Positions 1,254 through 50,306 of a stretch of DNA of 64,000 nucleotides are shown piece after piece. The stretch is from assembly GCA_033065855.1 (NCBI GenBank), contig JAVXUO010002997.1:1-64000 (forward strand), written 5' to 3'. The first letter of the stretch is position 1, and the number at the start of each line of letters is the position of its first letter. The stretch is from Escallonia rubra (Eukaryota; Streptophyta; Magnoliopsida; Escalloniales; Escalloniaceae). Under the pieces are notes generated by a model. It did not search any database. It had not been told where the DNA came from and worked only from the letters and a program-made list of their open reading frames with translations. Position numbers and translations under genes: made by a program.

Positions 1254-1259
1254 TATAAA
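1254..1259 (+). promoter_or_regulatory. Candidate TATA box of the antisense PMD gene
   Basis: TATAAA within TTCTATAAAGAGGGAG lies on the plus strand, just after an A+T-rich patch in otherwise G+C-rich DNA and about 820 bp before the first PMD start codon. The spacing would give transcription from about 1285 with a purine-rich leader. This rests on the motif and its position only. Confidence 0.4.
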
Positions 1260-1379
1260 GAGGGAGAGGGGGGGGTGGTTTGTAAAGAAACATTCCGCAT
1301 TTGGGAAAGAAAGATTGAGAGAAAGAAAAGAGAAGAAATGGTGAGAAAGGGAAGGCGAGTGGCCGGGGGGGCGGCCGCA

Positions 1380-1860
1380 GAGGGGGGTCGGCGTGGCCAA
1401 GGGGTCGGCGGCGGTGGAGAGAAGGAAAGAAGAGGGGAAGGGGGAAAGAGGGAAGAAAGAAGGGAAGAGGAGGGGTCGGCCACCCGAGGGGGGTCGGCGG
1501 GGGGAGGAGGGTCGGGCACCCCGGGGGGTCGGCCAACACGGGGGAGAGGAGACGGGCGGGGAGGAAAGGAGGAGAGGGGAGGGGCTCGGCCACGCGAGGG
1601 GCGTCGGCCGGCAGAGGAGGTTCAGCGGGGGGAGATGCCGCGGGGGGAGTAGGGAGAGGGAGGAGAGAAGAAAGGGATCGGCGGGGCCGAGGGGGTCGGG
1701 AGCTGGAGGTGGGTCGGCGGGGACGAAGGGGTCGGGAGGGGGAGGTGGTTCGGCGGCCGAAGGGGTCGGGAGCTGGGGGGTCTCGGTGCAGAGGGGTCGG
1801 GAGCTGAGGGAGGTCGGCGGGGAAGGGGGGCGAGGAGCTGGGGAGTCGGCGGGGTCAAGA
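1380..1860. repeat. Purine-rich repeats with GGGGTCGGC core (antisense leader)
   Basis: The words GGGGTCGGC, GGTCGGCGGGG and GGTCGGGAG occur about 18 times at irregular spacing in a G/A-rich plus strand. This is the reverse complement of the GGCCGACCCC core of the LTR minisatellite at 13619-14096, so the two sets lie in inverted orientation within the element. Proline-rich and glycine/arginine-rich ORFs here on both strands are artefacts of composition. Confidence 0.75.
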
Positions 1861-2080
1861 GCCACGGGCAAGGTCACGCCCGCCGAGCCGGTGCCCGTTC
1901 TGAACATGTTGGAGCAGCAGATGTGGGTGAAACCACGAGGTGGTGCGGCGAGCGCGGCGCGGCCACCGTGAAATGTGACGACGGAACCGGTGGCGCCCCC
2001 GCCCAGAGATGAGGGCGAAGCTGCGGGAGGGGGGGAGACGGGAGTGCCGCTTTCATTTGATGATGCGTCGGTGAGGACGT

Positions 2081-4173
2081 ATGATCCGGACCCGGATAAG
2101 ACGGTCACCGTTGAGAGTAAAAGGGGTAGTACTGGCCATGCCTGGCCGGGAGTTGTGGAGGGAGCTGGCCATCCGGGTAGCAGATGGTGCGTTCACAGTG
2201 CCTTGGAGTGGTGCGTCGATGGGGGAGGAGCCGCGAGTGCCGTCACCATATGTGCGGGCTCCTAGCTGGGAGGATGCGCCCGTGCCGTCACCGAGGTATG
2301 TGGCGGGGTTGTTGGTGGAGCGTGAGGATATACCCTGGGCACCTGTGGTGTTCAAGGGTCACGGTGCGATGCCGATTGGGTGGGACTTCTGGTGTGAGCA
2401 CATGATGGAGGTGCCGAGGTGGGCGGCATTATTGGATGTGTTGGGGTTGGTGCCGGCGATTGACATTACGGCGAGGGGGGTGGAGTTGTACAAAGACACG
2501 CCTGGGATGACTTTGTTGTTGTCGCGATGGAGTACTCAGACACATACCTTTGTGACTGAGTTCGGAGAGATTGGGCCGACGCTGCTAGATGTGATGATGT
2601 TGACGGGGCTGCCGATGCGTGGAGAGATGGACGCACGTGTGACGCGGCTGACTAATGAGGAACGGTTGTTGCAGACGCAGTTGATTGATATTTTGGCAGA
2701 GACGAAGCAGCATCGGAAGGCGACATATAGCGGGTGGCTCCGATTGTTCTACGGCACGCCGCAGGTGAGGGCGGGGCAGAAATTGGGCAATGCGGCCCAT
2801 TTCGTAATGGGGCCATATCACAAGGACGAGTGGTACGAGATGGTGGCCTTTTTGACGATGTACTTGTCGAGGTAAGAATGATGCGTTCCATTGCTTGTAT
2901 ATTTGTAGATGTGATGTGAGTTTTTGGTTGTATATAATGCATTGGCGTGTTGTTTTGTGTTGCAGATTCGTGTTTGAAGGGACGCCGGAGGATGGCATAT
3001 CCGCGAAGGTGATCCCCCTGGCGATTCGGATGGCGCAGGGGAAGCGTGTTGGGCTAGCTCCCGTGTATCTGGGCACCATGTATTCACGGTTGGATCAGTT
3101 CGTGAACGACGTGAAGAGGTCGCACGGGCGGTACCAAGTGGCGACCTACGTGGATTGGATGTTCCTGTAGCGGTACTTGTATGAGTGCTTTCCAGACTAT
3201 CGTCTGACAGGATATCCGCTCGAGCATCCAGCACCGAAGACGAGGACAGTGATGCACAGCGGCAGATCACGGGAAGTGGCATTGTGGTGCAGTGGGGCGC
3301 GGGCATTTGCATGGGCGGGCATCAAGAGGCCGGAGTGCTCATTGTCGCGGTTGATGGATGTGAGGGAGGCATGCATGGCACGACCGTATAGAGAGATGCA
3401 TGCGTCATACAGAGTACCCCCTGGTTCCACGGACAGGAGATGACGATAGATCTGACCAAGAGGGGGGGTTGCCACCGGCGGACGTTGTGCTCTTGGTGGC
3501 CTACTTTCCAGGTTGGCTGCCAGTGATGACTGATGATGGCGGGAAGTCTGCAGAGAACCTATATTACGTGGCTCGGTATTGCCCGGACCGGTTGTCGCGG
3601 ACATTTGGTTACTTGGAGCCGCCGTGTGGGTATCGTAGCCCATGGAATGTGACGACCGCATTCGGATACACGTGGTATGACAGAGTTCGTGAGTGGCCGG
3701 TACCGGTGGTAGCGTGGAGGAGGCCGGGGAGAGCGTCAATGGGGGCGGTGACGGTGGAGTATGCACAGTGGTGGGAGCGTCTGCGGGCGGTCTGGGCGGA
3801 GTGGTTGGCACAGCCATCGGGGACACGGCGACTGGTTGACGTGTTCGCCTGTGACCGGGCGTTGAGCTTGGTATCGATGACAGCGGCGAGGCAGGCCGGC
3901 ATGCTGGTGTTAGTGACGGGGAGTGCGGTTGTGAGTTCGGAGAAGGATCCCGACGAGGAGGGCGAGCAGTCCGAGGATGAGGCTCTAGAGGAGGACCATG
4001 GGGAGGGGCCAGTGGTGGCGGTATCGCGGGTGCCAGGGGCCGGCAAGGGGCCGCTGTCGTTACTGCGAGTTGGTATGATGGAGGGGGCTCGTCAGGCGAG
4101 CGCGGGTTCTTCAGACTTGTGGCTGACATGATCGAAGAGGCCGCGAGATGCGTTGGAGGAGCCAGTGGTTGAG
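2081..4173 (+). pseudogene. Plant Mobile Domain (PMD) gene, antisense in the Tat element, N-terminal part
   Basis: From the ATG at 2081, exon 1 (2081-2871) encodes 263 residues. They include GWDFWCEHMMEVPRW, LLSRWSTQTHTF and GPTLLDVMMLTGLP, which fit the PMD family (Pfam PF10536, the MAIN/MAIL1 type domain; plants carry it both in host genes and in transposons). A 94 bp GT-AG intron follows. Exon 2 resumes in frame (FVFEGTPEDG), then meets TAG at 3168, probably from CAG, and continues in frame to about 3443. The rest (3400-4131) is in another frame and contains AYFPGWLPVMTDDGG and WWERLRAVWAEW. It lies opposite to pol and converges on it. Function is not known from sequence; PMD proteins of the host are nuclear and affect silencing and transcription. 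The stop and frameshift make this copy a pseudogene. Family assignment is from memory of conserved words. Confidence 0.82.
2872..2965 (+). other. Intron 1 of the antisense PMD gene
   Basis: The donor GTAAGAATG follows TACTTGTCGAG, and the acceptor TTGTGTTGCAG precedes ATTCGTGTTTG. Removing the 94 bp joins ...MYLSR to FVFEG with the reading frame kept. The plus-strand intron inside a minus-strand retrotransposon shows that the gene is meant to be transcribed opposite to the genomic RNA: in genomic RNA the intron is antisense and cannot be spliced out. Confidence 0.8.
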
Positions 4174-4274
4174 GTAGGCCGAACTGTGGCCGCTTGTGAT
4201 TAAATCTCGTTTTGTTTTTTTTTTTTGATGTTATTATTAAAATAAAAAAAATGCTAATGGTTGGTTTTGGACAG
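4174..4274 (+). other. Candidate intron 2 of the antisense PMD gene
   Basis: GAG|GTAGGCCG at 4174 and a T/A-rich tract ending TTTTGGACAG|GGGTACG at 4274 make a plausible 101 bp GT-AG intron. It has a run of T and A (4208-4252) unlike the G+C-rich exons. The reading frame just before it is disturbed (TGA at 4129 in one frame), so the phase cannot be verified. Confidence 0.55.
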
Positions 4275-5426
4275 GGGTACGGGGGACAAGCGGTGGAGAG
4301 CGGCAGCGATGCAAATGTAGCGGTCGAGACAGAGGCGGCGAGAGCAGCTGAGGTTGATGAGCCAGCAGGCAGGGATGAGCCGGTAGCGTTTGGCGCACCG
4401 GGGGCCGGGGCCAGTGGCGGGGTGAGTCCACCACCAGATGTCGAGGAGGGGGCGGGTGATGTGTATGGTGGCTTGGTCGACGAGTCGTTGATGTTTGATG
4501 CCAGTGGTTACTGGTGGACAGGCGCGGCGACGGAGGCCGCGGTGGTTGAGCGGGGGGATTTGATGGAGTTGGAGCCTGCAGTGGCGGTCCCGATTCAAGA
4601 GGTGGAGATCCCGGTGCAGCCGGTGTAGGCTGTTGTGGTGGCGCCGTCAGGGTCGACCGTTGAGGCGAGTGCGACGTTGATGGCGATGCACTCGATGATC
4701 TTTAGTGTACAGGCAGCCGGGGAAGTGCGTGAGAGGCCGGTGATGGTGTTGAGTGGCACAGCAGCCGGGGAGGCGCGTAGCGGATCGTGGAGTGGCCAGG
4801 CCGACGTGGTAGTAGGGGAGAACCTCCAGCTACCCTTGGAGACAGTGCGTCGGTTAGAGATGGTGAAGGCGGCGTACCCGCAGACGTTTGAGGGGGTGAA
4901 TTTAGAGAATTCGGTGCTGTAGAGATGGGTGTACTCAGGGTTTGTGGAGTGGCTGCTGCCGATTGCGAGTGTTCCCGCGGCGGGCTGGACAACAGCGTTC
5001 ATTGAGCGGTCACTGACGGAGTTCGCGGCATTCACCTCTTTAGGTGTGCAGCTAGATTGGTTGGCCGAGTTCTTTAGGTCGAGGAGCGAGGGTGGTGCTG
5101 TGAGCGAGAGGATGGCCTTGGTACGCATAAAGGAGATGCTGCTCGAGAAGCGGCGCCAAGGGCTGGAGGTGGAACGATCAGAGATCAACGGAGAGTTGGT
5201 CGTGATTGACAGAGAGGTGGCAGAGATAGAGAGGCAGCTGACAGACTTGCAGAGACGTCTGAGTGATCTCCAGAGGCGGCGGGCGGATGTGGAAGTGCGA
5301 GAGACTGGGCGTCTGAGGCGGCAAGCTGAGTTCGAGGCGGAGCAGTCGTCGCTACAGGTTCAGCGTCAGGCGTTGCAGGCGTTTAGCGTTCACCCGGTAG
5401 CCGCTTTGTTATCTAGCTTCCGGTAG
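4275..5426 (+). pseudogene. C-terminal part of the antisense PMD gene, acidic linker plus coiled coil
   Basis: One reading frame runs from 4275 to a TAG ending at 5426, with two internal stops, TAG at 4626 and TAG at 4920, both easily derived from CAG. The first 200 residues are rich in A, G, E and V and look disordered. The last part (about 5100-5400) is a strong heptad-like coiled coil, with words such as EIERQLTDLQRRLSDLQ and RRRADVEVRETGRLRRQ. Long C-terminal extensions with coiled coils are common in transposon-borne PMD genes, but I cannot name this one. It probably belongs to the same transcript as the PMD exons upstream. Confidence 0.6.
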
Positions 5427-5877
5427 GTTCATCATAGATGTACTGTCTAGGGAGTGCCCGGTAGTGGCCAAAGACATTTTATGTATGTATAAACACCTAT
5501 CTTGTTGGTACATGAAGTGTAATTGCGTGCTGTTTTGTTAACATCTGTCGTGCATGTATGGTATAAGCGTTGCGTGTGACGATTGCGTGTTGCGTCTGTT
5601 GGATGTCTGTCTGTGTCCCCCCCCCCCCCGTCCTTTCCTTGTTCTGCTTCTTGTTTTTTTTTATCGAGGACAAACACTTGATAACTAAAAAATGAATACA
5701 GAAGTAGAGGCAAAGTACAGCGGTATAAGTAAAAAGATCGTATATTGATAGTGCGTGAATTAAGGAAATGTCTTTACACAAAAAGAACTCGTAACAAGAA
5801 ATAAAAGTACAAGCTAATACATGTGTGTACATACACAAGATGCTGAGTCGTGGGGGGTGGGACAAGCCGCAAGTTGA
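5427..5877. other. Spacer between convergent PMD gene and pol
   Basis: These 451 bp separate the end of the plus-strand PMD gene from the end of the minus-strand pol gene. They are A+T-rich compared with their neighbours, carry a run of ten C (about 5619-5628), and contain AATAAAAG at about 5800 on the plus strand, which could serve as a polyadenylation signal. No conserved coding words are seen. Confidence 0.5.
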
Positions 5878-6753
5878 TCATGCATAGTACTTCTTCAGAT
5901 AGCGACCATTGACAGGGGCGGTAAGTTGCCCGTCGTCTGGATTGAGTAGGAGGTACGAGCCATTGCTCCTGGCAGTATGTATTTCAAATGGCCCCTCCCA
6001 GTTAGGTGTAAACTTAGGAGCTGACAAATTGGCCCGTACATGCTTGGCGGCTTGGAGGACGAGGTCACCTGCTGCGAATGAGCGAGGTTTGACGGTCTTC
6101 CCGTAGGCTTTGACAAGCTTCTCATGATATGCTTTCATTCGTCGCATGGCATTGGCTCTCTTTTCATCAAGGCTCTCAAGTGCCACCATTCTGGTTTCCT
6201 CCTCTCCGAGACCACTGCTGAGGGATAGACGCGCCGATGCGATTGCGATCTCGGTCAGCACTACACATTCGTCCCCGTAGACGAGGGAGAAGGGTGTGGC
6301 CTTCGTAGCTGTGTGTCTGGAAGTTCTGTAGGCCCAGAGGGCATGACTTAGCTATTCGGACAAGGAGTTGCTCGCGTCATGGACCATGCGTGACAAAACG
6401 CGCAACAGAGTTTTGTTAGAGGCTTCAGCCTGACCGTTGCCTTGCGGATAATAAGGAGTCGACGTGGCATGATTGATATCGTCTACTTCCATGAGAGTCC
6501 GAACATCTCGATTGATGAATGGCGTGCCGTTGTCGGAGATAATACATCGGGGGATGCCGAAGCGACAGATGATGTGGTCGCGCAAAAAGTTGGCGATGGC
6601 GCCCCCTGTGGCTCTTCGCAGAGGTATGGCTTCGACCCACTTCGTGAAACGCTCCGTTGCGACCATGATCCAAATGTGACCTTTTGATGGTGGATGTATG
6701 GGGCCAATAAGGTCGAGAGCCCAAGAGTGGAATGGCCAAGGGGCCGTGATCAT
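5878..6753 (-). pseudogene. pol: Tat integrase catalytic core and C-terminal domain
   Basis: The catalytic triad is visible in ALDLIGP (D), ISDNGTPF (D) and GNGQAEASNKTL (E), the retroviral-type DDE integrase that inserts element cDNA into the genome. After a TAG at 6352 (probably from TGG, since W is usual there) the same frame continues with LSHALWAYRTSRHTATKATP and a C-terminal region with FAAGDLVLQ and PNWEGPFEI, ending at 5878. No chromodomain follows, as expected for the Tat clade. A frameshift near 6755 separates this frame from the zinc-binding part upstream. One stop and one frameshift make it non-functional. Confidence 0.9.
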
Positions 6754-6791
6754 GCGTAAGTTGCTGGCATGTGCATTCTATCTGCGTGTCT

Positions 6792-7373
6792 CTAGCAGGG
6801 TTGACAGTGTCGTACATGAGAGATTGCATCGGATTTCATAGTCGGCCAGTAGTACCCCAGCCTGAGTAGTTCTGCATACAATTTCTGAGAGCCTTGATGT
6901 TCGCCACAAGCACCATTGTGCACTTCGTTGATCACCTCGACTGCTTGGGCACCCTGCAAGCATCGTAGGGTGCGTCCCGAAAATCCCTTGCGAAATAATT
7001 CGCCTTCCGTCTCGAAGTACTTGACCGACTTGCGTTTGATAGATCGTGTCGAGCTGTGGTCAGAGGGTAGCAGTCCGTGGGACAGATATTGCAGGAAAGG
7101 CTGGCGCCAGTCACCCTCAATATTAACGACAAGAGCTTCCGTACGGTCTGGGGCATATAGGCATTCTGAGCAAGCCTGCTGCACATCCGAAGCATCCTTA
7201 GCCATGGATGGCCAAAAGAGACCAATTCGCTGGAGACGACGGTATAGTGGTGGTCCGCCGAGGCCGCAACACTTTTGATGTCCATATTGCAATTTGTGCT
7301 TTGCTTCTGCCGGGGCCAAGCATCGTGCCAGAGTGCCCCCGGGACATCGCTTGTACAGGATGTCTCCTAACAT
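6792..7373 (-). pseudogene. pol: Tat integrase zinc-binding region, duplicated
   Basis: Two similar modules follow each other. The first has LGDILYKRCPGGTLARCL, QYGHQKCCGLGG and QACSEC; its second histidine is lost. The second has GELFRKGFSGRTLRCL, EVHNGACGEHQGS, LGYYWPTMKSDA and HCQPC, a complete H-H-C-C set that binds zinc at the integrase N-terminus. Each module is preceded by DWRQP (the first of these lies before the TAA at 7380). Integrases normally have one such module. TAG at 6792, where CAG (Q) is usual, ends the frame. Confidence 0.85.
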
Positions 7374-7379
7374 AAAGAA

Positions 7380-8105
7380 TTATGTGCGAGTGGAGACGGA
7401 AGCGAGTGATGGTGCTCTAAGCTGGTCGACGATCGGCTGCCTCCAATCATCGGTCGTAGTGTCCGTCGGTACCAAGTCCAACGTCGTGCATGGTGCCGTC
7501 CTTTTGATAATGGTTAGCACCCGTTGTTCGCCGTCAATGTCTATTTTTGACGCGATCGTGGCTAAGCTGTCCGCATGTCGGTTGTGGCACCTGCTGTGAT
7601 GTTCATATTGGATATAACCAAGCTGTCCCTCCAAGTGTTGTACTAAGGCACGATAAGGTGCCAAGGCTGGCTCCCTGACTGCAAACTCCCCATCGGCCTG
7701 CTTCATGATTAGGTTCGAGTCCCCCTTTACACGCAATGATTTAGCCCCCATGCTGATGGCTAGCATGAGGCCAATGACGAGGGCCTCGTACTCGGCTTCA
7801 TTGTTAGATACCGGGAATGCGAGTTTGAAGGATAGGGAGGTGGTAACACCTTCTGGGTTCCGAAGGACAATGCCGGCACCACCTTGCCGGATGGGAATTC
7901 CCTTGGGGTCTTTACTAGTGGCTGAGCCGTCGAACTCAAGTGTCCATAATTCATCAACATCAGAGGTCAGGGCCGTCTCCTCTCCAGGCAATTGATGTGA
8001 GGTTGGTTCATATTGTTGACGTGGGAAGAAGGCGCGAGTGCTTGGCTTCGCAAAGCCGTAGGATTCTTGATGGATAGGCCGAATTCGGCCAGTAGTAGTA
8101 ACCAA
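7380..8105 (-). pseudogene. pol: Second (archaeal-like) RNase H of the Tat element
   Basis: The region around 7500-7950 encodes an RNase H fold with WTLEFDGSATS (first D), NNEAEYEALVIGL (E), VKGDSNLIMKQ (D) and NRHADSLATIAS (last D), so all four acidic residues are present. It would remove the RNA strand of RNA/DNA hybrids. This extra domain, closer to archaeal and host RNase HI, defines the Tat clade and is distinct from the RNase H fused to reverse transcriptase upstream. The start falls in a frameshifted overlap with the first RNase H; TAA at 7380 ends the frame. Confidence 0.88.
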
Positions 8106-9349
8106 CGAGTAAGTTGTCCAGACAGGGCGGGGCGGGTGAGCATGTATCGTAATGGGTCAGCCTTGGTGACGAGTACAATTTGGTGCGACAAGAAGTAGTG
8201 TCTGAATTTCTGCGAGGCGTAGACCAAGGCGAAACAATGCTTTTCGAGCTCAGAATAATTGGCCTCGGGTTCTTTAATTGACCGACTGAGATAATAAACC
8301 GGACGTTCCACTCCGTCCACTTCTTGAGCAAGTAACGCCCCTATAGATCTGGGCGTGGAGGTTAGGTAAAGCAAGAGTGGTAGGCCTCGCTGCGGGACAG
8401 CCATGGTCTGCGGTGACATGAGAACCGCCTTGATTTATTCGAATGCTTGTTGTTGGGGCGCACCCCAACTCCACGGTGCACTCTTGCGCGTCAAGTGCTG
8501 GAAGGGCGTGATGAGTTCGGCCAAGGCAGGGATGAACCTGCGGAGATAAGAAACCTTGCCAAGGAAACTTTTTAACTGCTTGGTGCTCTTGGGTGGTGGC
8601 ATCTCTCGGATAGAGGCGACTGTGGAGGGGTCAACGTCGATACCCTGTCGATTGACCAGGAAGCCGAGAAATTTGCCGGAGGAGACCCCAAAGGCACATT
8701 TGAGCGGATTCATTTGCATGTTGTATTGACGACATCGATCAAAAACTGCCCGAAGGTCCGCAAGATGCTCACTTTCCTTTTTAGATTTAATAATGAGGTC
8801 GTCAACATAGTCTTCCACTGTGCGGTGTATCATGTCGTGGAAGATAACTGTCATAGCTCTCTGATAGGTGGCACCCGCATTCTTGAGACCAAAAGGCATG
8901 ACCTTCCAACAAAAGTTACCCATCGGGGTCCGAAAAGCTGTGTTGGCACTGTCATCTTGGTTCATTCGAATTTGGTTGTAGCCGGTGAAGCCGTCCATTA
9001 AGGACAGGGTCTCGTGTCCGGCGGTAGCCTCCGTGAGCATATCAATATTGGGCAGTGGAAATTCATCTTTAGGGCATGCCTTATTCAAATCGCGGAAGTC
9101 AATACAAACGCGAACTTGTCCATTCTTCTTTTGCACAGGAACAACATTGGCCAACCAGATAGGATGAGTGATGGGTTCGATGAAGCCAGCCTGCAGAAGT
9201 CGTTCGATCTCTTGTTTGATTTTTATTTCAAGTTCGGAACGGAAGGATCGCGTATGCTGTCGAATTGGGATGAACCCGTTGGTAATGTTGAGATGGTGCG
9301 TCACCAAGGCAGGATCCAATCCAGGCATTTCGTTATAACTCCATGCCAA
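7967..9349 (-). pseudogene. pol: Tat reverse transcriptase and first RNase H
   Basis: The frame starts with LAWSYNEMPGLDP, followed by the reverse transcriptase core: VRVCIDFRDLNKACPKD, SLMDGFTGYNQI, MPFGLKNAGATYQ and the catalytic YVDD of EDYVDDLIIKS. It ends with the connection region. TAA at 8435 interrupts just before the first RNase H (LTSTPRSIGALLAQE, VYYLSRSIKEPE), whose end is frameshifted near 8035. Upstream, 9350-9501 carries the usual lead-in (EDLEEINLADAGVEPR) in a different frame, with an apparent deletion joining it to LHWHETRDVLAWS. The enzyme copies genomic RNA into DNA; this copy cannot be translated through. Confidence 0.92.
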
Positions 9350-9580
9350 TACGTCGCGAGTTTCGTGCCAATGTAGGTCAGTCGAGGTTCCACCCCCGCA
9401 TCAGCCAGGTTAATCTCTTCAAGATCTTCGGCCTGCGGCCGCGTGCCGTCTTCATAGCAGGGGGTGCAGCGCCCGGTGTAAGCTCGTGATCTGACGGACA
9501 ATGCTCAGCCATGCAACACCATTATGGCTCCGTAGGTGGGCAGTGGTCGAGGCAGTCGGGCAGCGGACCCCCGGACACCG

Positions 9581-10834
9581 TCATAACTGGTAGATGACCC
9601 TTCCGTCCTTGATGACGCGCTGGAAGGTGGTTTCAAACTTGGGCTTTTTGGGCTTGGGGGATGAAGGCGGGGAAATGGTAGGGGCATCAGATGGTGATGT
9701 GGAGGTTGATGCCTTGTTCTTGTTGTTTTTCTTGGACTTGGACTTGGATTTGGGTGGCTTGTTCCCACACAGCTCATCCCAATCTGGCAGCTTGGTGGAG
9801 TGGATGTGAGTGGCATTCTCATTGTCTGCAGCGGGTTGGGTGAAGGAGGCCTCAGCAAAATAAGACTCGGCGCACTCGAAAGGGGCCTTGGTTGCGGGGA
9901 TGGTTACTGCTACCTCATGTCCCGCAGGACCGGCCACCAGTTTCACACACTGGTGGTACGTCGAGGGAACATCCTTGTTGAAATGGATCCAAGGTCGCCC
10001 AAGTAGGAGGTGGAAGGAAGACTCGCTATCTATCACATGGAAAATGGTGTCACGCCGGACAGTTCCGACCATTAGGTCGACAGTGATGTGGCCAAGAGTG
10101 GACTGGGGGCCCTGCCCAAAGCTAGTGATTTTGATGGGGTCCCGAATGATCTTTCTTGGCGGTATACCGGCCCGCTGCAAAGTGATGAGGGGGATGATGT
10201 TGATTGAGGCGTCGCAATCTACCAAGGCGCGGCGGAAGCCGGTGCCGTTGACAGTGCATTCAAGGTATAGTGGCCGGTTATGGTGCTCGACGGTAGGTGA
10301 GTCCTCATCTGAAAATATAAATGCAGTTGACGGGCCATGTCTGAGCTCAGCCTGGGCGGTGAAGCACTCGGGCCCGAGGCCTGTGGTGACCTCGATCAAG
10401 CAATCTGAGAGATAGGTCTGCGCCGCGGGTGAAAACCCCATTTCATCAAAGAAGCCTTTGATCTTCGTCATTTGGCCAGCCGAGGACACTGGCTGGGGGG
10501 TAGGAGGCATGAGGGCTGTGATCAAAGGCGAGACTTCCGCAGGAGCTTCGAGGACGAGCGGCTCGAAGTGGTCGGTGGTAACCATGAGCACCTGGTGCTC
10601 GCGGTTGTCGTTGCCATGGTTTGGGTATGGTTCTTTCCTCACATCATTATTCTTCCGCAGTTGTAGCTCGCCTGACGCGACTTTTCTTGCAAAGATGGCC
10701 CGCAACGCATTGCAGTTCTTGAGAGGATGACCGAGGGCCTGGTGGAAGGGACAGTAGTTGGGCCTGGTTCTTTCCTCGTCCGTGATGGGGATCCGTACGG
10801 GTGGTAACTGGGAGTTGTTGTCGTTGACAACCCA
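9581..10834 (-). pseudogene. pol: Tat gag zinc knuckle and aspartic protease
   Basis: In the same frame as gag, right after the TAA at 10835, comes YCPFHQALGHPLKNC, a C-x2-H-x4-H-x4-C knuckle that would bind RNA. The protease follows with RALVDCDASINIIPL, ITSFGQGPQ and LLLGRPWIH. In retropepsins the active site is D-[ST]-G-A or close to it; here the glycine is replaced by aspartate (GAC), which should inactivate the enzyme that cuts the polyprotein. A lysine/serine-rich tail (KSKSKKNNKNK) ends at 9581. Confidence 0.87.
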
Positions 10835-12439
10835 TTATGTCAATAGATCCTTCACTATATTTAAATCGCACGAAAAGGCATGCGGAGTCTCCTGTTGTCG
10901 CCGTTTGTCTGTTTGTTGGTCCCTATCCGGGAACTGGCGTTTAAAGCCAGTGTAACTACTGACGTTGCTATTGTTGTTGTCGGTGCTGGTGCCGCTGCGC
11001 TGGGTACTGGGTGGGGCTGCTGAGGCCACTAGTGCACTCTGTGGCCGAGGCCTCCATGGGTTGACAGGCCCGACCGTCTTGTAAGTACGTCTTGCCGTCT
11101 CTTTGAGATGTCCCCATGATTTCAATTGTAGGTTCTCGAGGTGCACCCGGTACACGTCGTTCATATTCTTGATGCATATGGGCACCAGTGTCTCATCCTT
11201 ACTGAAATCCGTGCACTTGAGGCATTTAAGATGAAAGCGATGCACATATTTGGTCAAGTCTTCGCCGGGGGCTTGGCGAATGCCGGCGATGTCCACTATG
11301 GTAACGTGCTCAGCTTCATAATGGAATTTGTCCATGAAGAGTTGGACCATTTCATGCCATGAATGGACTGTCCCCGCAGGGATCTGGTGGTACCAAGTGT
11401 AGGCTAAGCCTGTAAGGGACTTGTGGAATTCCCTCAACTTCAAGCTGTCTCCCGGGCCGTACTGCTCCAATGAGCCTGCGAATCTCGTCAAATGCTCAAG
11501 GGCGTTGCCCTCGCGCCCGTTGAAGAGCACAAAGGCTGGTTGTTTGTACTTGAACGGATAGGGAATGATGGCTATCTCGTCAGCATACGACGCGTGGCTC
11601 GTCAATCGACTCGATGAGTCGGGTGCGGACTGCTGTGACAGCCGGTGAAGAAGCGCATCAAAGTCAGCCTTTGAAACATAGTTGGAGGGCGGCTCCTCTA
11701 GGCTGATCAAAGTTTGGTGGCCGACCGGTGCTCCGCGAGCCCCAGAATCCCCTGTCGGTACAACTTGGTGGGCAGGAACGGTTGAAGGGCGATACACGGC
11801 GGGTGTTGATGCGGGCAGGTGAATGGTGGCATGGGTGGGCGAACGAGACATATCCACCACCTGGCCTGTCATTCGGTGCTGTTCCATCAAGTAGGGGTTA
11901 GGCTCCATCTCAATGGACTCGTGAGTCTCGGAAGAGCTCCTGGCTGGAAGATGTTAAGGCGCCATAGTGGGAGAGACTTGTTGTAATAATGGCCCAAGAT
12001 CTAGCTACTGCCTGCGTGGGGGCATCATGGGACGCGGCGTGTCTGTCACGGGCGGTGAAGGTGTCGCGAGTCCTATCGCCAGGGGTCTGGAGGGTTGAGG
12101 CGGCAGTGGTCGTGACACCGGCGCCTGGGTAGCGTCAGGGGACGGCTCAGGTCCTGTAGGCTGGACCGGCAGCATAATCTGTTGCGAGGCCATCGCTTGT
12201 ATGGATTTTTGCATTTCCAATATGGCGGCCATGAGTGAAGCCTGAGAGTCCTGTATGCTGGCTATGGTGGGAGTGAACTGTTGGATGGCTGCGTTGACTG
12301 CCACTTGCACGTCAGGTGTGGGAGGGTCTTGGGGGCGCACAGCGCTAGTCCCCTCTTGGTCGTCAGAGTGATGTTCCTCGCGGATGGTGGGGTCGAGGCC
12401 TTGGCTGGTTGCCCTGGTAACTTTCCGTTGTACATGCAT
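10835..12439 (-). pseudogene. gag: Tat gag (capsid) gene
   Basis: The ATG at 12439 lies 40 bases past the primer site. The frame is open except for TAG at 12005, TAA at 11954 and TAA at 10835. The N-terminal third is proline-rich with a helical segment (QASLMAAILEMQKSIQAM). The retrotransposon gag domain follows: YPFKYKQPAFVLFNGREGNA, HLTRFAGSLEQYG, LREFHKSLTGLAYTWYHQIP, SWHEMVQLFMDKFH and KYVHRFHLKCLKC. It would form the particle that packages element RNA. Frame and length (about 535 codons before the knuckle) fit Tat gag; the three stops disable it. Confidence 0.9.
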
Positions 12440-12478: not shown

Positions 12479-12496
12479 GCCCCGGCGGAGTCGCCA
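12479..12496 (-). promoter_or_regulatory. Primer binding site of the Tat element
   Basis: The minus strand reads TGGCGACTCCGCCGGGGC two bases after the LTR end (AACA-TT-TGGCG). A TGG start and this position are diagnostic of a tRNA primer site. The TGGCGACTC start resembles the tRNA-Arg type used by Ogre and other Tat elements; the tRNA identity is from memory. Confidence 0.8.
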
Positions 12497-13329
12497 AATG
12501 TTGATGCCGAAAGAGGGTCCTTTGCCACGTCGAGGTGCCACAAGGGATGCAGTCTGAGTTGGCTTCCAAGTGGGCAAAGTGGGAGACAGCAGGGATGACG
12601 TAAGGGCTGAGAGCAAGGCTCCTCAGGCAGGTCACGAGGGCTGGCAGTGTCGCGCAGGCAGGGTGACGACGAACAGGGCCAGCAGTCGACAGTCTGTGTC
12701 AAGAGCGCAATGTCGAGAGCTCGAAGTCGTAAGCCCAAATGTCTTTCTCTCACTAGAAATCCAGAGAGAATAGGTTTTAGAGAGAGAAAGTGAAAATGTC
12801 AAATGAGGCAGAAGTCCTTGAATAAGCTCCAGAATCCACTATATATAGGCACAAATATGCGCGTGTCATCAGCCGACACGTGTCGCCCTCTGGTAGTGAC
12901 ACGTCACCGTAAAAGGTCCCACAGTCTGGATTGTCTGTTGAATTGCCCGTCCCCGAGTTCGTGTCGCCCTGCCGTTGCAGCGTCCCTCTGCCTGTCTAAA
13001 GAGACTGACTACACTGCGGTAGCATGGTCAGAGTAGCCCGTTGCCCCAGCCTCCAGTCCAAGCCCTTACTGAATCCCACTAGATGCGTCAAGAGACGCGC
13101 CGAGATCCTGGCAGCGGTAAGGGTTACCCCTGCAGCCAATTGCCAGGCGTGTCAGACGCGATGCCTTCCGAGGACCTGCTCCCGTCCCGGAGTGACTCGC
13201 GGTTCATTGCCCTGGCGGTGTTGATGATCAATGGTAACATGAGCGCACATGCTCGCAGCTTGATATCTAGAGTTTGTGGCGAGGGGTCCTTGTGCCGGGG
13301 CACTACGAATGGAGCCCCCTGTGAGTCTG

Positions 13330-13535
13330 TCGGCGATAGCCTTAGGGTTGTGAACCCATTCCCGTTGCGAAGGCCGGAGCCCGTCGATTAATTGTGTTGG
13401 CGAGGGCCGGAGCCTTCAGTTAATTGTGCCTGCTAGGGCTAGAGCCCGTCGGTTGATTGTGCTGGCGAGGGCCGGAGCCCTTGGTCGTTTGTGCGGGCGA
13501 GGGCCGGAGCCCCCGGTCGATTGTGTGCGCAGTAA
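13330..13535. repeat. Diverged GAGGGCCGGAGCCC tandem repeat in the LTR
   Basis: Four to five copies of a unit of roughly 37 bp carry GCGAGGGCCGGAGCCC followed by a GTCG-TTGATTGTG segment. The first copy (GGCGATAGCCTTAGGGTTGTGAACCC...) resembles the 68-69 bp unit of the internal array at 293-700, so the two arrays are related. Confidence 0.7.
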
Positions 13536-13618
13536 TGGGCGTCACACGACCACTAGTGGTGAGTGCGTTGAGTGGTGTGATAGCAGCGGTAAGCAAGTCC
13601 CCTCCCCCTTCTAAGGAC

Positions 13619-14096
13619 AAGGGAGGCCGACCCCCTTCTCAGTGGGGTGGCCGACCCCCTCACCAAAGGGGTGGCCGACCCCCTCACAAGGTGGTGGCCG
13701 ACCCCCTCATCAAAGGGGTGGCCGACCCCTAACAAAAGGGGCGACCGACCCCCCATAAAAAAGGGGTGGCCGACCCCCTCATCAAAGGGGTGGCCGACCC
13801 CCTCATCAAAGGGGTGGCCGAGCCCCTCACCAAAGGGGTGGCCGACCCCCTCACAAGGTGGTGGCCGACCCCCTCATCAAAGGGGTGGCCGACCCCTTCA
13901 TCAAAGGGGTGGCCGACCCCTCACAAGGTGGTGGCCGACCCCCTCATCAAAGGGGTGGCCGAACCCCTCATCACAGGGGTGGCCGACCCCTTAACAAAAG
14001 GGGTGGCCGACCCCCTCATCAAAGGCGTGGCCGACCCCCATCTCAGGGGGGTGGCCGACCCCCTTCTCAGGGGGGTGGCCGACCCCCCGGGGGGGA
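13619..14096. repeat. 24 bp G+C-rich minisatellite in the LTR
   Basis: About 18 copies of GGTGGCCGACCCCCTCATCAAA or close variants, with a unit near 24 bp and occasional 21 bp versions (CACAAGGTGGTGGCCGACC). All three plus-strand frames give repetitive ORFs (GVADPLIK and the like), which I take as by-products. The core is the reverse complement of the GGGGTCGGCC words at 1380-1860. Confidence 0.92.
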
Positions 14097-14336
14097 GGCA
14101 CTTTCGATCTGTCGGAATTGCTTTTAAGGCGCGGAGCGCTTCGATCGAGCATGGCGATGTTTTGAGCATCGGAGCGTTTTGACCGAGGAATGATGTTGAG
14201 TAAATTTGACTATCGAGCGGGTGACGTGTCGTGCCACTGGAGTCTTTTAGCGGGCCCTAGGGTGGAGCGGGTGACGTGTCGTGCCACTGGAGTCTTTTAG
14301 CGGGCCCTGGGGTGCGGTCCGAATAGGTTGTGAACA

Positions 14337-16765: not shown

Positions 16766-17789
16766 AGGCAGAACCGAACTCTTGAGACATCATTGAGTGT
16801 AAGAACACTTTTTCGACCATGGATGTAGTACCCTTTGCCCCTGATGATGTCGCCCTAATGATGTTGAAGAAATGACTCTGTTGGTGACATTAAGTTTTAC
16901 AGCCGGCATCATGGAAGAAGTAGTTTGTGAAAGTAGCTAATTTGTCGCCTTCGCCCAGCTTCAACTTTTGATGTTGGTCCTTGTAACTACAAGATTTTTT
17001 GTGTAAAGCTTGAGACCAAGAGATTTAAAGTTAGTCATCCTTTGAGCTATTGCAGCTTGAAATTTGAAGGATGGATAGTAGAGAAGAGATGAGAGGCATA
17101 GATTATAGTTTTGAGCTTAAAAATAAGGAGAAAAAAATAACATCAAATTGAATTTGTGTTGATATGACTAGCGAGCACAATAGTGTAACGCCCCCGACCT
17201 TGGGAGCCGTTACCAATGTACTTCGAGTCCTAAATCATATGCATTCTAATAAATACTCAATTACACCAAGGTATAAACAGAGCATCTAATACATTATCAA
17301 CAAGCATCTCCAAAAGGTAGAGGCGCAAAACAACCTTACCTCATACAACCGTTAATCACAAAAGAATGATCCATCCTCAAATTCTATTACAAAATTCTAA
17401 TGCCAAATCAAATTACCCACTTCCGGGTAAAGTTCTAAAAAAGGAATACATCGTTTTTTACAAGCTAACAAAATAGGAACTATAATTCTCCGAATGTGCC
17501 AAGCTCCTAATCATGCTTACCACCTCTGATAAGGGACAAAGCAACAAATAGGGGTGAGTTCAAATAGACTAGTAAGGGGAAATCAAATGGAAGCGAATAC
17601 GTTATTTCGTATTTCGGAACAAATCATAACTTTGATGAACAAACAATAGTAATTGACATTTACGTCAAATAAGCGAATCAAATATACGAAATGATCATTA
17701 GTGGCCATAGGCCCAAATCGAACACAAAATCTGAAGGTGTGAAACACCTACCGTTAGAGTAATAGTCGTCAATGTGAGAACTATCCGAA

Positions 17790-17886
17790 AGTCACTTAAA
17801 GTGACTACAAAAACCACTAAGGTGGCTACAAAAGTTACCAAGTAACTACAAAAGTCACCGAAGTGACTACAAAAGTCTTAAAGACT
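17790..17886. repeat. Array of five short palindromes in the LTR
   Basis: Successive short inverted repeats are separated by CTACAAAA: GTCACTTAAAGTGAC, CCACTAAGGTGG, GTTACCAAGTAAC, GTCACCGAAGTGAC and GTCTTAAAGAC. Spacing is about 20-23 bp. The stems differ from each other but each arm pair stays complementary. It lies downstream of the TATA box in element orientation, so it would be transcribed. The other LTR has four (23721-23797), lacking the CCACTAAGGTGG unit. Confidence 0.85.
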
Positions 17887-18329
17887 CCCCTTTTCAACAA
17901 ATGGTTGTTCATTCTAATGATCATATGAAAATTACAAATTTCAAATAGTAATGAAGGCAAATACGAAACAAGTTGAACGATTCTCCAAAGTTGTATAACA
18001 ACTAGTAAAATGATACTAATTAACGAATCCTTATCACAGAAAGAAATAGGAAATCCCTTACCTTAATCAAGCCCTTTGCTACGAAATCCTTAAAGTGTTG
18101 CCTTAGTATCTCAAGAGTCTCCCAAGCCCTCTCTCTCTCTCTCTCAACCTTTAAGAAGAGAAGCAAAAGAACTAAAAAAGAAGAGTTGGAGGGAAAATAA
18201 GCTATTTATAGGAAGAATGCTAAGTTGGGGATTTATACTAACACTCCCTAAACTTATGTATCTTATTCAAAATGTACCCAAAACTTTTCAATATTTACGA
18301 AAAGGGAACCTAATACTTTCATTCGAAGG

Positions 18330-18500
18330 AAAACTATTCCTTCGACCGAATCCTTCAGTCGCGAAATAGCCTTCTTTGCACTCATTCTTTTTCATTCGAC
18401 CGAAAACATTTTCATTCGACTGAATCCATCAGTTGCTTCATCTCTTCGATTTAAAACACTTTTCATTCGACTGAAAGTACTGTTCATTCGACCGAAAAGT
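18330..18500. repeat. TTCGACCGAA-type words in LTR U3
   Basis: At least six copies of CATTCGACCGAAA or CATTCGACTGAAT occur in the part upstream of the TATA box in element orientation. TTCGACCGAA is nearly palindromic. Position and repetition suggest promoter elements, but this is inference. Confidence 0.55.
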
Positions 18501-18601
18501 ATTGTTCATCTTTTTTTGTTTCCTTCTCCTTTTAATGATTTATCCCTTAATTTATTTTCCAACAAATATGATCTTCATTAGCATAAAAAGGGGCTCTTAC
18601 A

Positions 18602-23113: not shown

Positions 23114-24492
23114 TGTAACGCCCCTGGCCTTGGAAGCCGTTACCAATGTACTTCGAGTCCTAAATCATATGCATTCTAATAAATACTCAATTACACCAAG
23201 GTATAAACAAAGCATCTAATTGATTATCAACAAGCATCTCCAAAAGGTAGAGGTGCAAAACAACCTTGCCTCATACAACCATTAATCACAAAAGAATGAT
23301 CCATCCTCAAATTCTATTACAAAAGTCTAATGCCAAATCAAATTATCCACATCCGGGTAAAGTTCTCAAAAAGGAATACATTATTTTTGACATACTAACA
23401 AAATAGGAACTATAATTCCCCGAATGTGCCAAGCTCCTAATCATGCTTACCACATGTGATAAGGGACATAACAACAAATAGGGGTGAGCTCAAATAGCCT
23501 AGTAAGGGGAAATCAAATGGAAGCGAATACGTTATTTCGTATTTAAGAACAAATCCATAACTTTGACGAACAAACAATAGTAATTGACATTTACGTCAAA
23601 TAAGCGAATCAAATATACGAAATGATCATTAGTGGCCATAAGCCCAAATCGAACACAAAACCCGAAGGTGCGAAACACATATCGGTAGCGAAATAGCCGT
23701 CACTATGAGGACTATCCGAAAGTCACTTAAAGTGACTACAAAAGTTACCAAGTAACTACAAAAGTCACCGAAGTGACTAGAAAAGTCTTAAAGACTCCCT
23801 TTTTCAACACAAGGTTGTTCATTCTAATGATCATATGCAAATTACAAATTACAAATTTCAAATAGTAATGAAGGCAAATACGAAACACGTTGAACGATTC
23901 TCTAAATTTGTATAACAACTAGTAAAGTGATACTAATTAACGAATCCTTACCACAACAAGAAATACGAAATCTCTTACCTTAATCAAGTCATTTGGTACG
24001 AAATCCTTAAAGTGTTGCCTTAGTATCTCAAGAGTCTTCCAAGCCCTCTCTCTCTTTCTCTCAACCTTTAAGAAGAGAAGCAAGGGAACTAAAAAAGAAG
24101 AGTTGGAGGGAAAAGAAACTATTTATAGGAAGAATCCTAAGTTGGCGATTTACACTAACACTCTCTAAACTTATGTATCTTATTCAAAATGTACCCAAAA
24201 CTTGCCAATATTTACGAAAAGGGAACCTAATACTTTCATTCGAAGGAAAACTATTCCTTCGAGCGAATCCTTCAGTCGCGAAATAGCCTCCTTTGCACTC
24301 ATTCTTTTTCATTCGACCGAAAACATTTCCATTCGACTGAATCCATCAGTTGCTTCATCTCTTCGATTTAAAACACTTTTCATTCGACCGAAAGTACTGT
24401 TTACTTTTTTTCCCTTCTTCTTCTAATGATCTATCCCTTAATTTATTTTCCAACAAATATGATCTTCATTAGCATAAAAAGGGGCTCTTACA
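23114..24492 (-). repeat. 5' LTR of the Del/Tekay-type element
   Basis: 1379 bp, from TGTAACGCCCC to GGGGCTCTTACA, the partner of 17184-18601. Its palindrome array (23721-23797) has one unit fewer. A TATA box (TATAAATAG on the minus strand) lies at about 24119-24127, so transcription would start near 24095. Confidence 0.94.
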
Positions 24493-49032: not shown

Positions 49033-50306
49033 TAGTATGGTCGACTAAGTGCTGTAGACAGATCCAAATACATTCAAAAAGTTTCTAATAATAGGATAAT
49101 GAGGCGTAAGAATGTGAATGCAATTGTTCTTCATGACTTCAGCAAAGAATAAATATGCCCAAGATATGTCACGTTACAACTGGGTGTAAATTACTTTTAT
49201 CTATTCAATTGCACTTTCTCTTTTGCTGAATTTGGACGAGTGGGCTTGAGACATGTACGACCCCTTGGAATGAGGTTGGGCTATCCTAAAGGAATAGATA
49301 GTTGAAGTATTCTCGACCATGTTAGGTAACGACTCTTTCACTAATTGCCAATCATCACGAAATGCACAAACTAGGATTTTGCATCATTTTTCCTTGATAA
49401 GATTGACTGAAGGGTTAACATTACACAAGAAAAAAAAAGTACTAATCTCCATTTTGTGTGTTTCTTGTGCAGTGTTGGCATAACGACAAACACAAGGAAG
49501 ACATACTAAGACAAATTTATGAAGGCGGAGAAGCAAAAGTACCAAGATTATATTGTCTCTATTAGTTTTCAAACTGAGCTATACTTCATTTAACTTACTA
49601 AAACAGAAGATAAGTCACGCGGTGTATTGAGGAGGCTATGATCGATCCTAGAAGTAGCACCTCAGAACCTGTGTGTTAAGCAAACCGATCTTCGTTGAAT
49701 GAATCTATCAATATGCTAGTAAGTACAATATGAAAAATATATGTTGTATTTCAACTCATATAGGGCGAACTTGTAGAATTTCATTTCTATGGATGGCGAA
49801 ATATGTTCCACCCATCCTCTTGGTTGTTGGCATGCCAACGTCTAAGAGGTTTCCATATGTTGTTAGCAGGGGGGGGGGGGGGTTAACTATAGTAATCAAC
49901 CATTTAGGTTAGACTATTAGAACTGTAGCATTTCTTATAGGATTACTTTTCTGCAACTATTCTACAATCCCAAATTTAAACTTTCTATTGCCTCCATGAC
50001 CCCCACATGGGTAACAAAGCAACTCTAGGTTCGTTGCCACCCCATCAAGATACTATGCCTCTAATTGGTTACTATTGAAATGGATACTCTCTTTAAGACC
50101 CATAAATTCCTTCGCCTAGGTTTTGCAAACATGGGGTTCCCGCCTTCAGTGAAAAAAATACTCAAAAAGGAAAAAAGTTTCACAAGATGAAACTATATTA
50201 CTTGTTATAGCCACATGCTCTTCATATAAAGTTGGTAAAGGCAGATAGCTCTCTCCTTAGTATAGGTTGATGCCTATAAGCTTATTGTTCTTTTGTTTTT
50301 TAATTA
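49033..50306. other. Intergenic DNA
   Basis: No conserved reading frame. A run of about 14 G lies at 49870-49882. Nothing else can be supported. Confidence 0.35.

Follow-up and report, generated by a model that had tools for sequence, protein, structure and literature searches.

An intron-containing plant mobile domain gene, antisense to a Tat-lineage Gypsy retrotransposon, has been kept by purifying selection

In Escallonia rubra, a minus-strand Gypsy retrotransposon of the Tat lineage carries a gene for a plant mobile domain (PMD) protein on the plus strand, between its integrase and its 3′ LTR. PMD proteins are silencing and transcription factors of plants. We are close to certain of the structure of this gene and of the selection acting on it: two small GT–AG introns interrupt the coding sequence of a protein in which a complete PMD is followed by an acidic linker and a coiled-coil tail, and that protein is under purifying selection. 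We propose that it is an antisense accessory gene of the family whose product may counter silencing of the element, and we give this whole chain a probability of about 40%. The window analysed here is a stretch of 64,000 nt (contig JAVXUO010002997.1, positions 1–64,000, forward strand), to which all coordinates refer. We read 36 copies of the gene: 30 that were aligned, the window copy counted, and six more.

Earlier literature describes PMD genes carried by Gypsy elements as well as Tat elements with antisense genes, and it also contains the counter-silencing idea. The first of these, which a first-pass annotation of this DNA had mentioned, is documented in several reports (PMC6317226, PMC5418596, PMC9289625). 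Neumann 2019 (PMC6317226) found an extra open reading frame (ORF) with PF10536 in 57% of Ogre elements, which like the present element are angiosperm Tat-lineage elements; orientation, introns, promoter and selection are not given in the available parts of that report, whereas the gene described here runs antisense, is split by two introns and shows constraint. The PMD-A1 and PMD-A2 clades likewise comprise PMD proteins encoded by angiosperm Gypsy elements (Ikeda 2017, PMC5418596); gene structure is not described in the accessible portion of that study. Host PMD proteins are involved in transposable-element silencing (PMC5418596, PMC7156037), and the proposal that transposons deploy PMDs to counter silencing has been published (PMC8616336). 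In the open-access literature we found no report of the spliced architecture, a promoter candidate or codon-level constraint of such a PMD gene.

The host element

Profile searches matched gag, protease, reverse transcriptase (RT), RNase H, RVT_3 and integrase on the minus strand, running from 12.0 to 5.9 kb. Gag and protease occupy 9581–11953 (PF03732, 1.1e-11; PF13650, 1.5e-4, slightly under its cut-off), RT 8435–9400 (PF00078, 2.5e-31), RNase H followed by a second RNase H (RVT_3) 7380–8434 (PF17917, 7.7e-25; PF13456, 1.5e-17) and integrase 5878–7379 (PF17921, 2.3e-15; PF00665, 5.3e-12). The succession RT, RT_RNaseH, RVT_3 and integrase is the arrangement that marks angiosperm Tat elements, in which a second RNase H is placed between RNase H and integrase (PMC6317226). 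The family thus belongs to the Tat lineage of Gypsy retrotransposons and is probably of the Ogre type. In the window copy, whose frames are broken, 180 nt separate the frames at 9581 and 9400; in the Ogre clade the gag–protease ORF and the RT ORF stand a short distance apart (274 bp on average; PMC6317226).

Both LTRs lie on the minus strand. The 5′ LTR spans 12499–14336, its 5′ end (14336) taken from the match to the 3′ LTR and its putative 3′ end lying beside a PBS-like TGG at 12496. The 3′ LTR is partial (1–189; 97–100% match to 14115–14336), its remainder lying beyond the contig start; positions 1–117 pair with 14115–14231 at 97% and 117–189 with 14264–14336 at 100%. A 69-nt tandem repeat of 5.2 copies (305–660) has the 3′ LTR on one side and the antisense promoter candidate on the other, and Retand elements likewise have tandem repeats near the 3′ LTR (PMC11963269). 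A tRNA scan of the whole window found none. With the pol domains mapped on the minus strand and the LTRs matched, the PMD gene lies antisense between pol and the 3′ LTR, as the first-pass annotation had placed it. A spacer (5427–5877) separates it from the convergent integrase gene, and mean identity to the window copy drops there to 0.884, compared with 0.92–0.96 in the flanking genes (29 copies).

Two conserved introns and a complete PMD

The conserved part of exon 1 (1873–2871, plus strand, as are all features of this gene) carries the N-terminal third of the PMD at about 2468–2871. Intron 1 (2872–2965, 94 nt, GTAAGA...TTGCAG) is followed by exon 2 (2966–4173), with the remaining PMD and then an acidic stretch, intron 2 (4174–4274, 101 nt, GTAGGC...GGACAG) and exon 3 (4275–5426), with an acidic linker, a C-terminal coiled coil at about 5100–5390 and a stop codon at 5424–5426. 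The window frame 2075–2872 matches PF10536 with E = 3.5e-15 and 56.5 bits (profile 7–119), above the Pfam cut-off of 34.9 bits; exon 2, over 2966–3107, matches with E = 5.4e-6 and 26.3 bits, under that cut-off (profile 114–166). In an open copy with both introns spliced there is one PF10536 match, to profile 8–347 (E = 1.2e-32, 114 bits), and this copy encodes 1311 residues. The PMD-family assignment made from the letters alone thus holds under the profile search that was to check it.

Exon 3 gave weak matches to coiled-coil families, all below cut-off; the acidic and coiled-coil extension, put forward at first as part of the novelty, is real and as a novelty only modest. PF04195 (TRP28) was absent among matches at E ≤ 1 in both the window copy and the open copy. 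The spliced protein has no transposase match and the surrounding element is Gypsy, which sets the gene apart from MULE-type PMDs. A protein database search with residues 190–900 of the open copy scored 7993 candidates, none at E ≤ 0.001, in a collection from which plant proteins may be absent, and when a genic PMD exon (L008) was compared with solved structures, nothing matched at E ≤ 1.

Both introns have GT and AG conserved in all 30 aligned copies, the window copy counted; the intron at 2872–2965 had been called clear in the first-pass annotation and the second, now placed at 4174–4274, only probable. Retaining either intron introduces an in-frame stop in 30/30 copies. Lengths are 91–94 nt for intron 1 and 86–111 nt for intron 2 across the 30 copies, with T at 0.43 and 0.41. 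As a background, 3 of the 20 GT and 3 of the 6 AG dinucleotides within the two introns of the window copy are kept in all 30 copies, and two of each three are the splice sites themselves. The annotation had also reasoned that antisense introns would survive replication through the genomic RNA, and both are kept in all aligned copies and in the six further ones.

The window copy belongs to this family but is dead: it cannot be translated, and any idea of a usable gene here finds no support. It carries five stops (1969, 3168, 4129, 4626 and 4920) and three frameshifts, one of 2 nt near 2108 relative to the other copies and two within 3410–3470. The end of the originally annotated span (2081–5426) stands. 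Its start at 2081 was rejected as an artefact because only the 2-nt frameshift near 2108 brings it into phase, and the conserved coding frame runs upstream of 2081 to at least 1873. Several long frames are open in this region, on the plus and the minus strand alike.

Could the PMD similarity or the introns have arisen by chance in a GC-rich element that is decaying? The window copy by itself, with its stops, frameshifts and long open frames on either strand, might suggest as much. The PF10536 match of the open copy, splice sites kept in 30/30 copies against 3/20 GT and 3/6 AG inside the introns, and the dN/dS contrast among the plus-strand frames (below) refute this explanation.

Purifying selection on one frame

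Substitutions across the copies show that purifying selection has kept the predicted PMD protein in lineages that transposed. The dN/dS ratio is 0.294 in the coding frame (1086 codons), while the two remaining plus-strand frames give 1.06 and 1.12. Every exon contributes: 0.33 (1873–2104) and 0.21 (2120–2869) in exon 1, 0.23 and 0.39 in exon 2, the later part being read from 3475, past the frameshift region, and 0.31 in exon 3; the integrase gives 0.18 for comparison. The antisense frame gives 0.39, which we read as a mirror of the coding frame and not as constraint of its own, because the third positions of the two frames coincide. Changes found in at least three copies comprise 254 synonymous, 165 nonsynonymous and 7 stop changes, and single-copy changes 288, 497 and 27. 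The seven shared stops show that some sequences sampled are dead or that mutations recurred among them. The whole spliced frame is open in 2 of the 36 copies, which supplies the intact relatives that the first-pass annotation had called for; only this fully open count is used here, since the per-copy stop counts of broken copies mix stops with frameshifts. With 34/36 copies broken, expression today may be rare.

The same data bear on the idea that the antisense RNA alone matters, regulating the sense RNA through double-stranded RNA with the protein incidental. RNAs of the convergent genes would overlap over several kilobases, and two reports, in their accessible parts, describe antisense transcripts from LTR elements as able to set off silencing or to modulate it (PMC7264820, PMC12786077). 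However, constraint is limited to one frame (0.294 against about 1.1), and the exons are closer to the window copy (mean identity 0.92–0.95) than are the introns and spacer (0.85–0.88). This freedom of introns and spacer, together with kept splice sites, is unexpected for a non-coding antisense RNA and makes the explanation very improbable.

Nor does the gene appear to be a passenger, that is, a recently captured host PMD gene or one beside which the element inserted. PMD loci are certainly numerous, with 216 PMD matches reported across the genome. Yet the integrase end lies antisense beside the PMD gene in 30/30 aligned copies (mean identity 0.956), exon-1 relatives share 74 to 100% identity (148 scored matches) and all exons are constrained. 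By contrast, the best-scoring genic PMDs, four tandem intronless genes (L001–L004), reach 24–28% identity over 210–425 aligned positions. They outrank L008, "MAIN-like" by our own reading, in pairwise score. In this comparison L005–L007 were left out and L008, L039 and L040 were compared by one exon only, giving short local matches (33–44% over 36–78 residues) that score below L001–L004. Among the genic PMDs compared, the closest are genes other than MAIN, and the only likeness to MAIN established here is the domain. Integrase adjacency, close exon-1 relatives set against distant genic PMDs, and exon constraint refute recent capture, and a passenger of either kind is highly improbable. An ancient capture may still have taken place and is one of two scenarios in the available text of PMC5418596.

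Candidate promoter and start codon

A TATA box at 1254–1259 (plus strand), lying about 1.06 kb inward of the boundary of the 3′ LTR, is the candidate core promoter. TATAAA is present there in 26 of the 30 copies, and two (L036 and L037) lack the block. A GA-rich leader leads to a candidate start codon at 1338–1340, an alignment column that reads ATG in 26 copies and CTG in 2, with the block absent in 2. Between this column and the conserved frame lies a low-complexity stretch in which Arg and Gly codons abound (1341–1872, plus strand; 417–664 nt in the 30 copies), a coding candidate that joins the ATG column to the PMD frame in phase in 8/28 copies (3/7 among subfamily copies). The start at 1338 stays a candidate because of this in-phase count and because L046, a copy with an otherwise open spliced frame, lacks the ATG. 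An intron from 1341, with a well-kept GTGAGA, to about 1872 is disfavoured: the stretch is G-rich, no pyrimidine tract was seen in it and it is open in phase in some copies. Among the best 40 of the 148 exon-1 matches, 25 have frames of at least 500 residues without inner stops; we do not count these as proof that the Arg/Gly-rich stretch is coding, because its frames are out of phase with the ATG in four of six further copies (L041, L043, L044 and L045). The arrangement strongly suggests that the gene has an internal TATA promoter of its own, about 1 kb inside the 3′ LTR, from which integrated DNA would be transcribed into a distinct mRNA that is then spliced.

Precedents for this position and orientation are antisense genes of other Tat-lineage elements. 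Maize Grande gene23, also antisense in the pol–3′ LTR interval, has its own promoter just upstream and a nuclear product, whereas the promoter here is only a candidate; the accessible portion of that report mentions neither a PMD nor splicing (PMC7264820). Antisense TRP28 (PF04195) ORFs of Retand elements share the position, the orientation and a long pol–3′ LTR region (Vicient 2025, PMC11963269), but the gene described here has no PF04195 match. That survey sought uninterrupted ORFs and, in its available text, reports no PMD. Since such surveys would fragment genes of this kind, spliced antisense Tat genes may be under-counted.

A possible anti-silencing role

In the model that we favour, the antisense gene would be transcribed from its internal TATA promoter as its own spliced mRNA. 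The genomic RNA would run in the opposite direction, both introns would be unspliceable there, and every new copy would for that reason inherit them. Acting in trans within the nucleus, the protein would engage the machinery of host MAIN and MAIL1 with the phosphatase PP7L and so keep the chromatin of the element transcribed; we hold this step tentatively, at less than even odds. MAIN and MAIL1 share the plant mobile domain (PMC5418596, PMC7156037), whereas the present protein is retrotransposon-borne, with extra N-terminal, acidic and coiled-coil parts. A functional parallel may be VANC21, a transposon-encoded anti-silencing protein of VANDAL21; that element is a DNA transposon, and anti-silencing is demonstrated there but inferred here (PMC8616336). 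As a counterpoint, antisense transcription could also feed double-stranded-RNA silencing (PMC7264820, PMC12786077).

A quite possible, if doubtful, alternative is that the protein serves the element's own nuclear cycle and leaves host silencing untouched, for example by activating or tuning LTR transcription, guiding the pre-integration complex or escorting RNA, much as accessory proteins of complex retroviruses might. The gene-level evidence (splice sites, PMD match and dN/dS) is identical for both readings, and current results do not separate them. Grande offers an example of an antisense gene with a promoter of its own and a nuclear product, and the accessible text of two studies proposes roles of this sort for antisense ORFs (PMC7264820, PMC11963269). 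Anti-silencing is slightly more natural because the PMD is linked to silencing factors.

If introns can be removed only in the antisense mRNA and not in the genomic RNA, functional protein would come only from integrated nuclear DNA. The element may then encode an intron-containing, independently promoted PMD chromatin factor as a nuclear anti-silencing programme separate from gag–pol replication, which we consider on balance unlikely. If true, such a split would resemble the way complex retroviruses separate regulatory from structural genes. The available text of PMC5418596 leaves open whether transposon PMDs gave rise to genic PMDs or descend from them. The transposon gene described here, with conserved splice sites, codon-level constraint, a candidate promoter and open copies, supplies a concrete protein for that question of origin, and equally for the printed idea that transposon PMDs counter silencing.

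A minus-strand Tat-lineage element with a plus-strand PMD gene

The window opens contig C2884, covering its first 64 kb; the leading 14.3 kb hold a minus-strand Gypsy element with gag, protease, reverse transcriptase, RNase H, a second RNase H (RVT_3) and integrase. According to PMC6317226, such an additional RNase H, placed after the first and ahead of integrase, distinguishes the angiosperm Tat elements, Ogre and Retand. The LTR pair matches along its first 190 nt, with the contig start truncating the 3′ LTR; a PBS-like TGG lies next to the 5′ LTR at 12496, and the gag–pol frames of this copy are broken. The 5′ LTR carries a 24-nt tandem repeat of 19.6 units (13621–14087), and a 50-nt duplication is found at 14215–14314. 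Elsewhere in the window, direct repeats at 17184–18601 and 23114–24492 (90.7% identity, about 5.9 kb apart) may be the LTRs of a further element, and those at 50306–50743 and 53584–54018 (95.4% identity over 438 nt, 3.3 kb apart) possibly delimit a small LTR element.

On the plus strand, the plant mobile domain (PMD) profile PF10536 matches at 2075–2872 (E=3.5e-15) and in the next exon (5.4e-6). Searching the genome (566 Mb, 3222 contigs) with 2081–5426 gave at least 36 full-length relatives at 90–100% identity, the window copy counted (40 matches scored of 605 candidates), and 30 copies, the window copy among them, were aligned. Mean identity to the window copy (n=29) is 0.949, 0.942 and 0.920 in exons 1 (from 2081), 2 (2966–4173) and 3 (4275–5426), 0.881 and 0.849 in introns 1 (2872–2965) and 2 (4174–4274), 0.884 in the spacer (5427–5877) and 0.956 at the integrase end. 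The coding stretches of both strands stand out in this profile, and its breaks coincide with the splice sites.

Both introns are kept in every copy read

The first-pass annotation had proposed a spliced PMD gene with one clear and one probable intron, and the sequence comparison supports both introns: GT and AG are kept in 30/30 copies, retention of either intron brings in an in-frame stop in all 30, and an open copy read spliced gives a single PMD match (profile 8–347). Of the dinucleotides that the window copy has within the introns, 3 of 20 GT and 3 of 6 AG are invariant across the 30 copies, the splice sites being two of each; for the whole of 2081–5426 the counts are 98/283 and 104/274. 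The donor is GTAAGT-like in intron 1 and GTAGGC or GTAGGT in intron 2, and T content is 0.43 and 0.41, respectively, compared with 0.20–0.22 in the exons. Lengths range over 91–94 nt and 86–111 nt, with all three phases occurring. No intron loss was seen in the 30 aligned copies or in six further ones, as expected if the replication RNA is the opposite strand; the annotation's argument that antisense introns survive replication thus agrees with the presence of both in all 36.

The spliced protein has been under selection

Across 1086 codons and all pairs of the 30 copies, dN/dS is 0.294 in the coding frame, against 1.06 and 1.12 in the remaining plus-strand frames; on the antisense strand the values are 1.07, 1.23 and 0.39, the lowest belonging to the frame that shares its third positions with the coding frame. 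By part, the ratio is 0.21 in exon 1 from 2120, 0.23 at 2967–3410, 0.39 at 3475–4173 and 0.31 in exon 3. It is 0.18 in the PMD part of exon 1, 0.25 in the coiled coil and 0.35–0.42 in the PMD end, acidic part and linker; integrase, on the opposite strand, gives 0.18. Selection has acted on the protein of this plus-strand gene as read through both splice junctions. The codon data and the gene's unvarying place tell against a role as RNA alone and against a passenger gene.

Single-step changes in at least three copies comprise 254 synonymous, 165 nonsynonymous and 7 stop changes; the counts are 116, 152 and 14 for changes in two copies, and 288, 497 and 27 for those in one copy only. Shared and single changes differ (Fisher p=2e-15), a value that overstates certainty because the copies are related, L016 and L017 being a 99.7% identical pair. 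The counts fit a gene that was held under constraint during the element's movement and decayed once inserted, although the 7 stops common to at least three copies count against this pattern.

Relatives with an intact antisense frame do exist. The whole spliced frame is open in one of the 30 copies (L032), where it encodes 1121 residues counted from the 1873 column, or 1311 if the ATG at the 1338 column is taken as the start, and in one (L046, which lacks that ATG) of six additional copies picked from the closest relatives of L032. The other 34 of the 36 copies read are not open. The window copy, itself broken, has 44 private single-base differences, 28 of them C-to-T or G-to-A, as expected of methylated DNA.

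The 5′ end

Coding behaviour extends from 1873 onward (dN/dS 0.15 in the 16 codons ahead of 1921, a small sample), so translation should start upstream of 1873. A candidate plus-strand TATA box at 1254–1259 is present in 26/30 copies, and a candidate ATG at 1338, downstream of a GA-rich leader, likewise in 26/30. The block (columns 1254–1338) is absent in two copies, L036 and L037, which have sequence resembling the element's 69-nt tandem repeat (305–660) in its place. Between the ATG and 1873 lies a stretch rich in Arg and Gly codons, 417–664 nt long among copies; it keeps the PMD reading frame in 8/28, no more than chance. We lean, at about even odds, towards its being translated and drifting fast; the alternative is a further 5′ intron or a different start.

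Relation to other PMD proteins

The open-copy protein has an Arg/Gly-rich N terminus (about 1–185), the PMD (391–796), acidic stretches (about 850–1010) and a predicted coiled coil (about 1205–1300), the last from weak coiled-coil-family matches and from inspection of the residues. Among the genic PMDs compared, L001–L004 come closest, being 24–28% identical to the element PMD over 210–425 positions, whereas exon-1 relatives (at least 148, scored of 2273 candidates) show 74–100% identity genome-wide. By this comparison, the PMD gene is old in the element, not recently captured. L001–L004 are four tandem intronless genes (C922, 1276726–1298317) with the PMD in a single uninterrupted frame of 643–689 residues. 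Three other PMD loci (L008, L039 and L040), compared through one exon each, scored below them. In L039 (1499–4194) a PMD exon is followed by a frame matching Ulp1/C48 protease, and the locus looks like a MULE-type PMD–protease element; one identical PMD score is common to at least 44 of the genome PMD matches listed. L040 (minus strand, 4563–5255 and 3198–3680) belongs to another multi-exon PMD family, with several near-identical copies among the matches listed.

Discussion

That Gypsy elements carry PMD genes, as the annotation stated, is already in print: published work describes PMD as an extra ORF in 57% of Ogre elements (PMC6317226), PMD-A1 and PMD-A2 as encoded exclusively by Gypsy (PMC5418596) and PMD as the commonest non-canonical domain in an LTR-element survey (PMC9289625). 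Tat elements are also reported often to carry an additional gene in antisense orientation downstream of pol, before the 3′ LTR (PMC7264820, PMC11963269), including one in maize Grande with its own promoter and a nuclear product (PMC7264820) and one in Retand with a TRP28 domain (PMC11963269). The gene described here is real and well kept, sits in a dead copy and is of a kind known in outline. What may be new is its spliced structure, with a candidate TATA promoter, together with the evidence of codon-level constraint: a search of open-access full texts found neither introns nor a promoter nor codon-level selection reported for a PMD gene carried by Gypsy, although this absence is weak.

Integrated copies would transcribe the gene from its own promoter, and the product would act in the nucleus, in trans. 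Less certainly, with a probability of roughly 0.4, the protein would keep the element's chromatin in a transcribed state, either by competition with the host PMD/PP7L machinery or by making use of it. The main rival reading is that it serves the element's own cycle within the nucleus.
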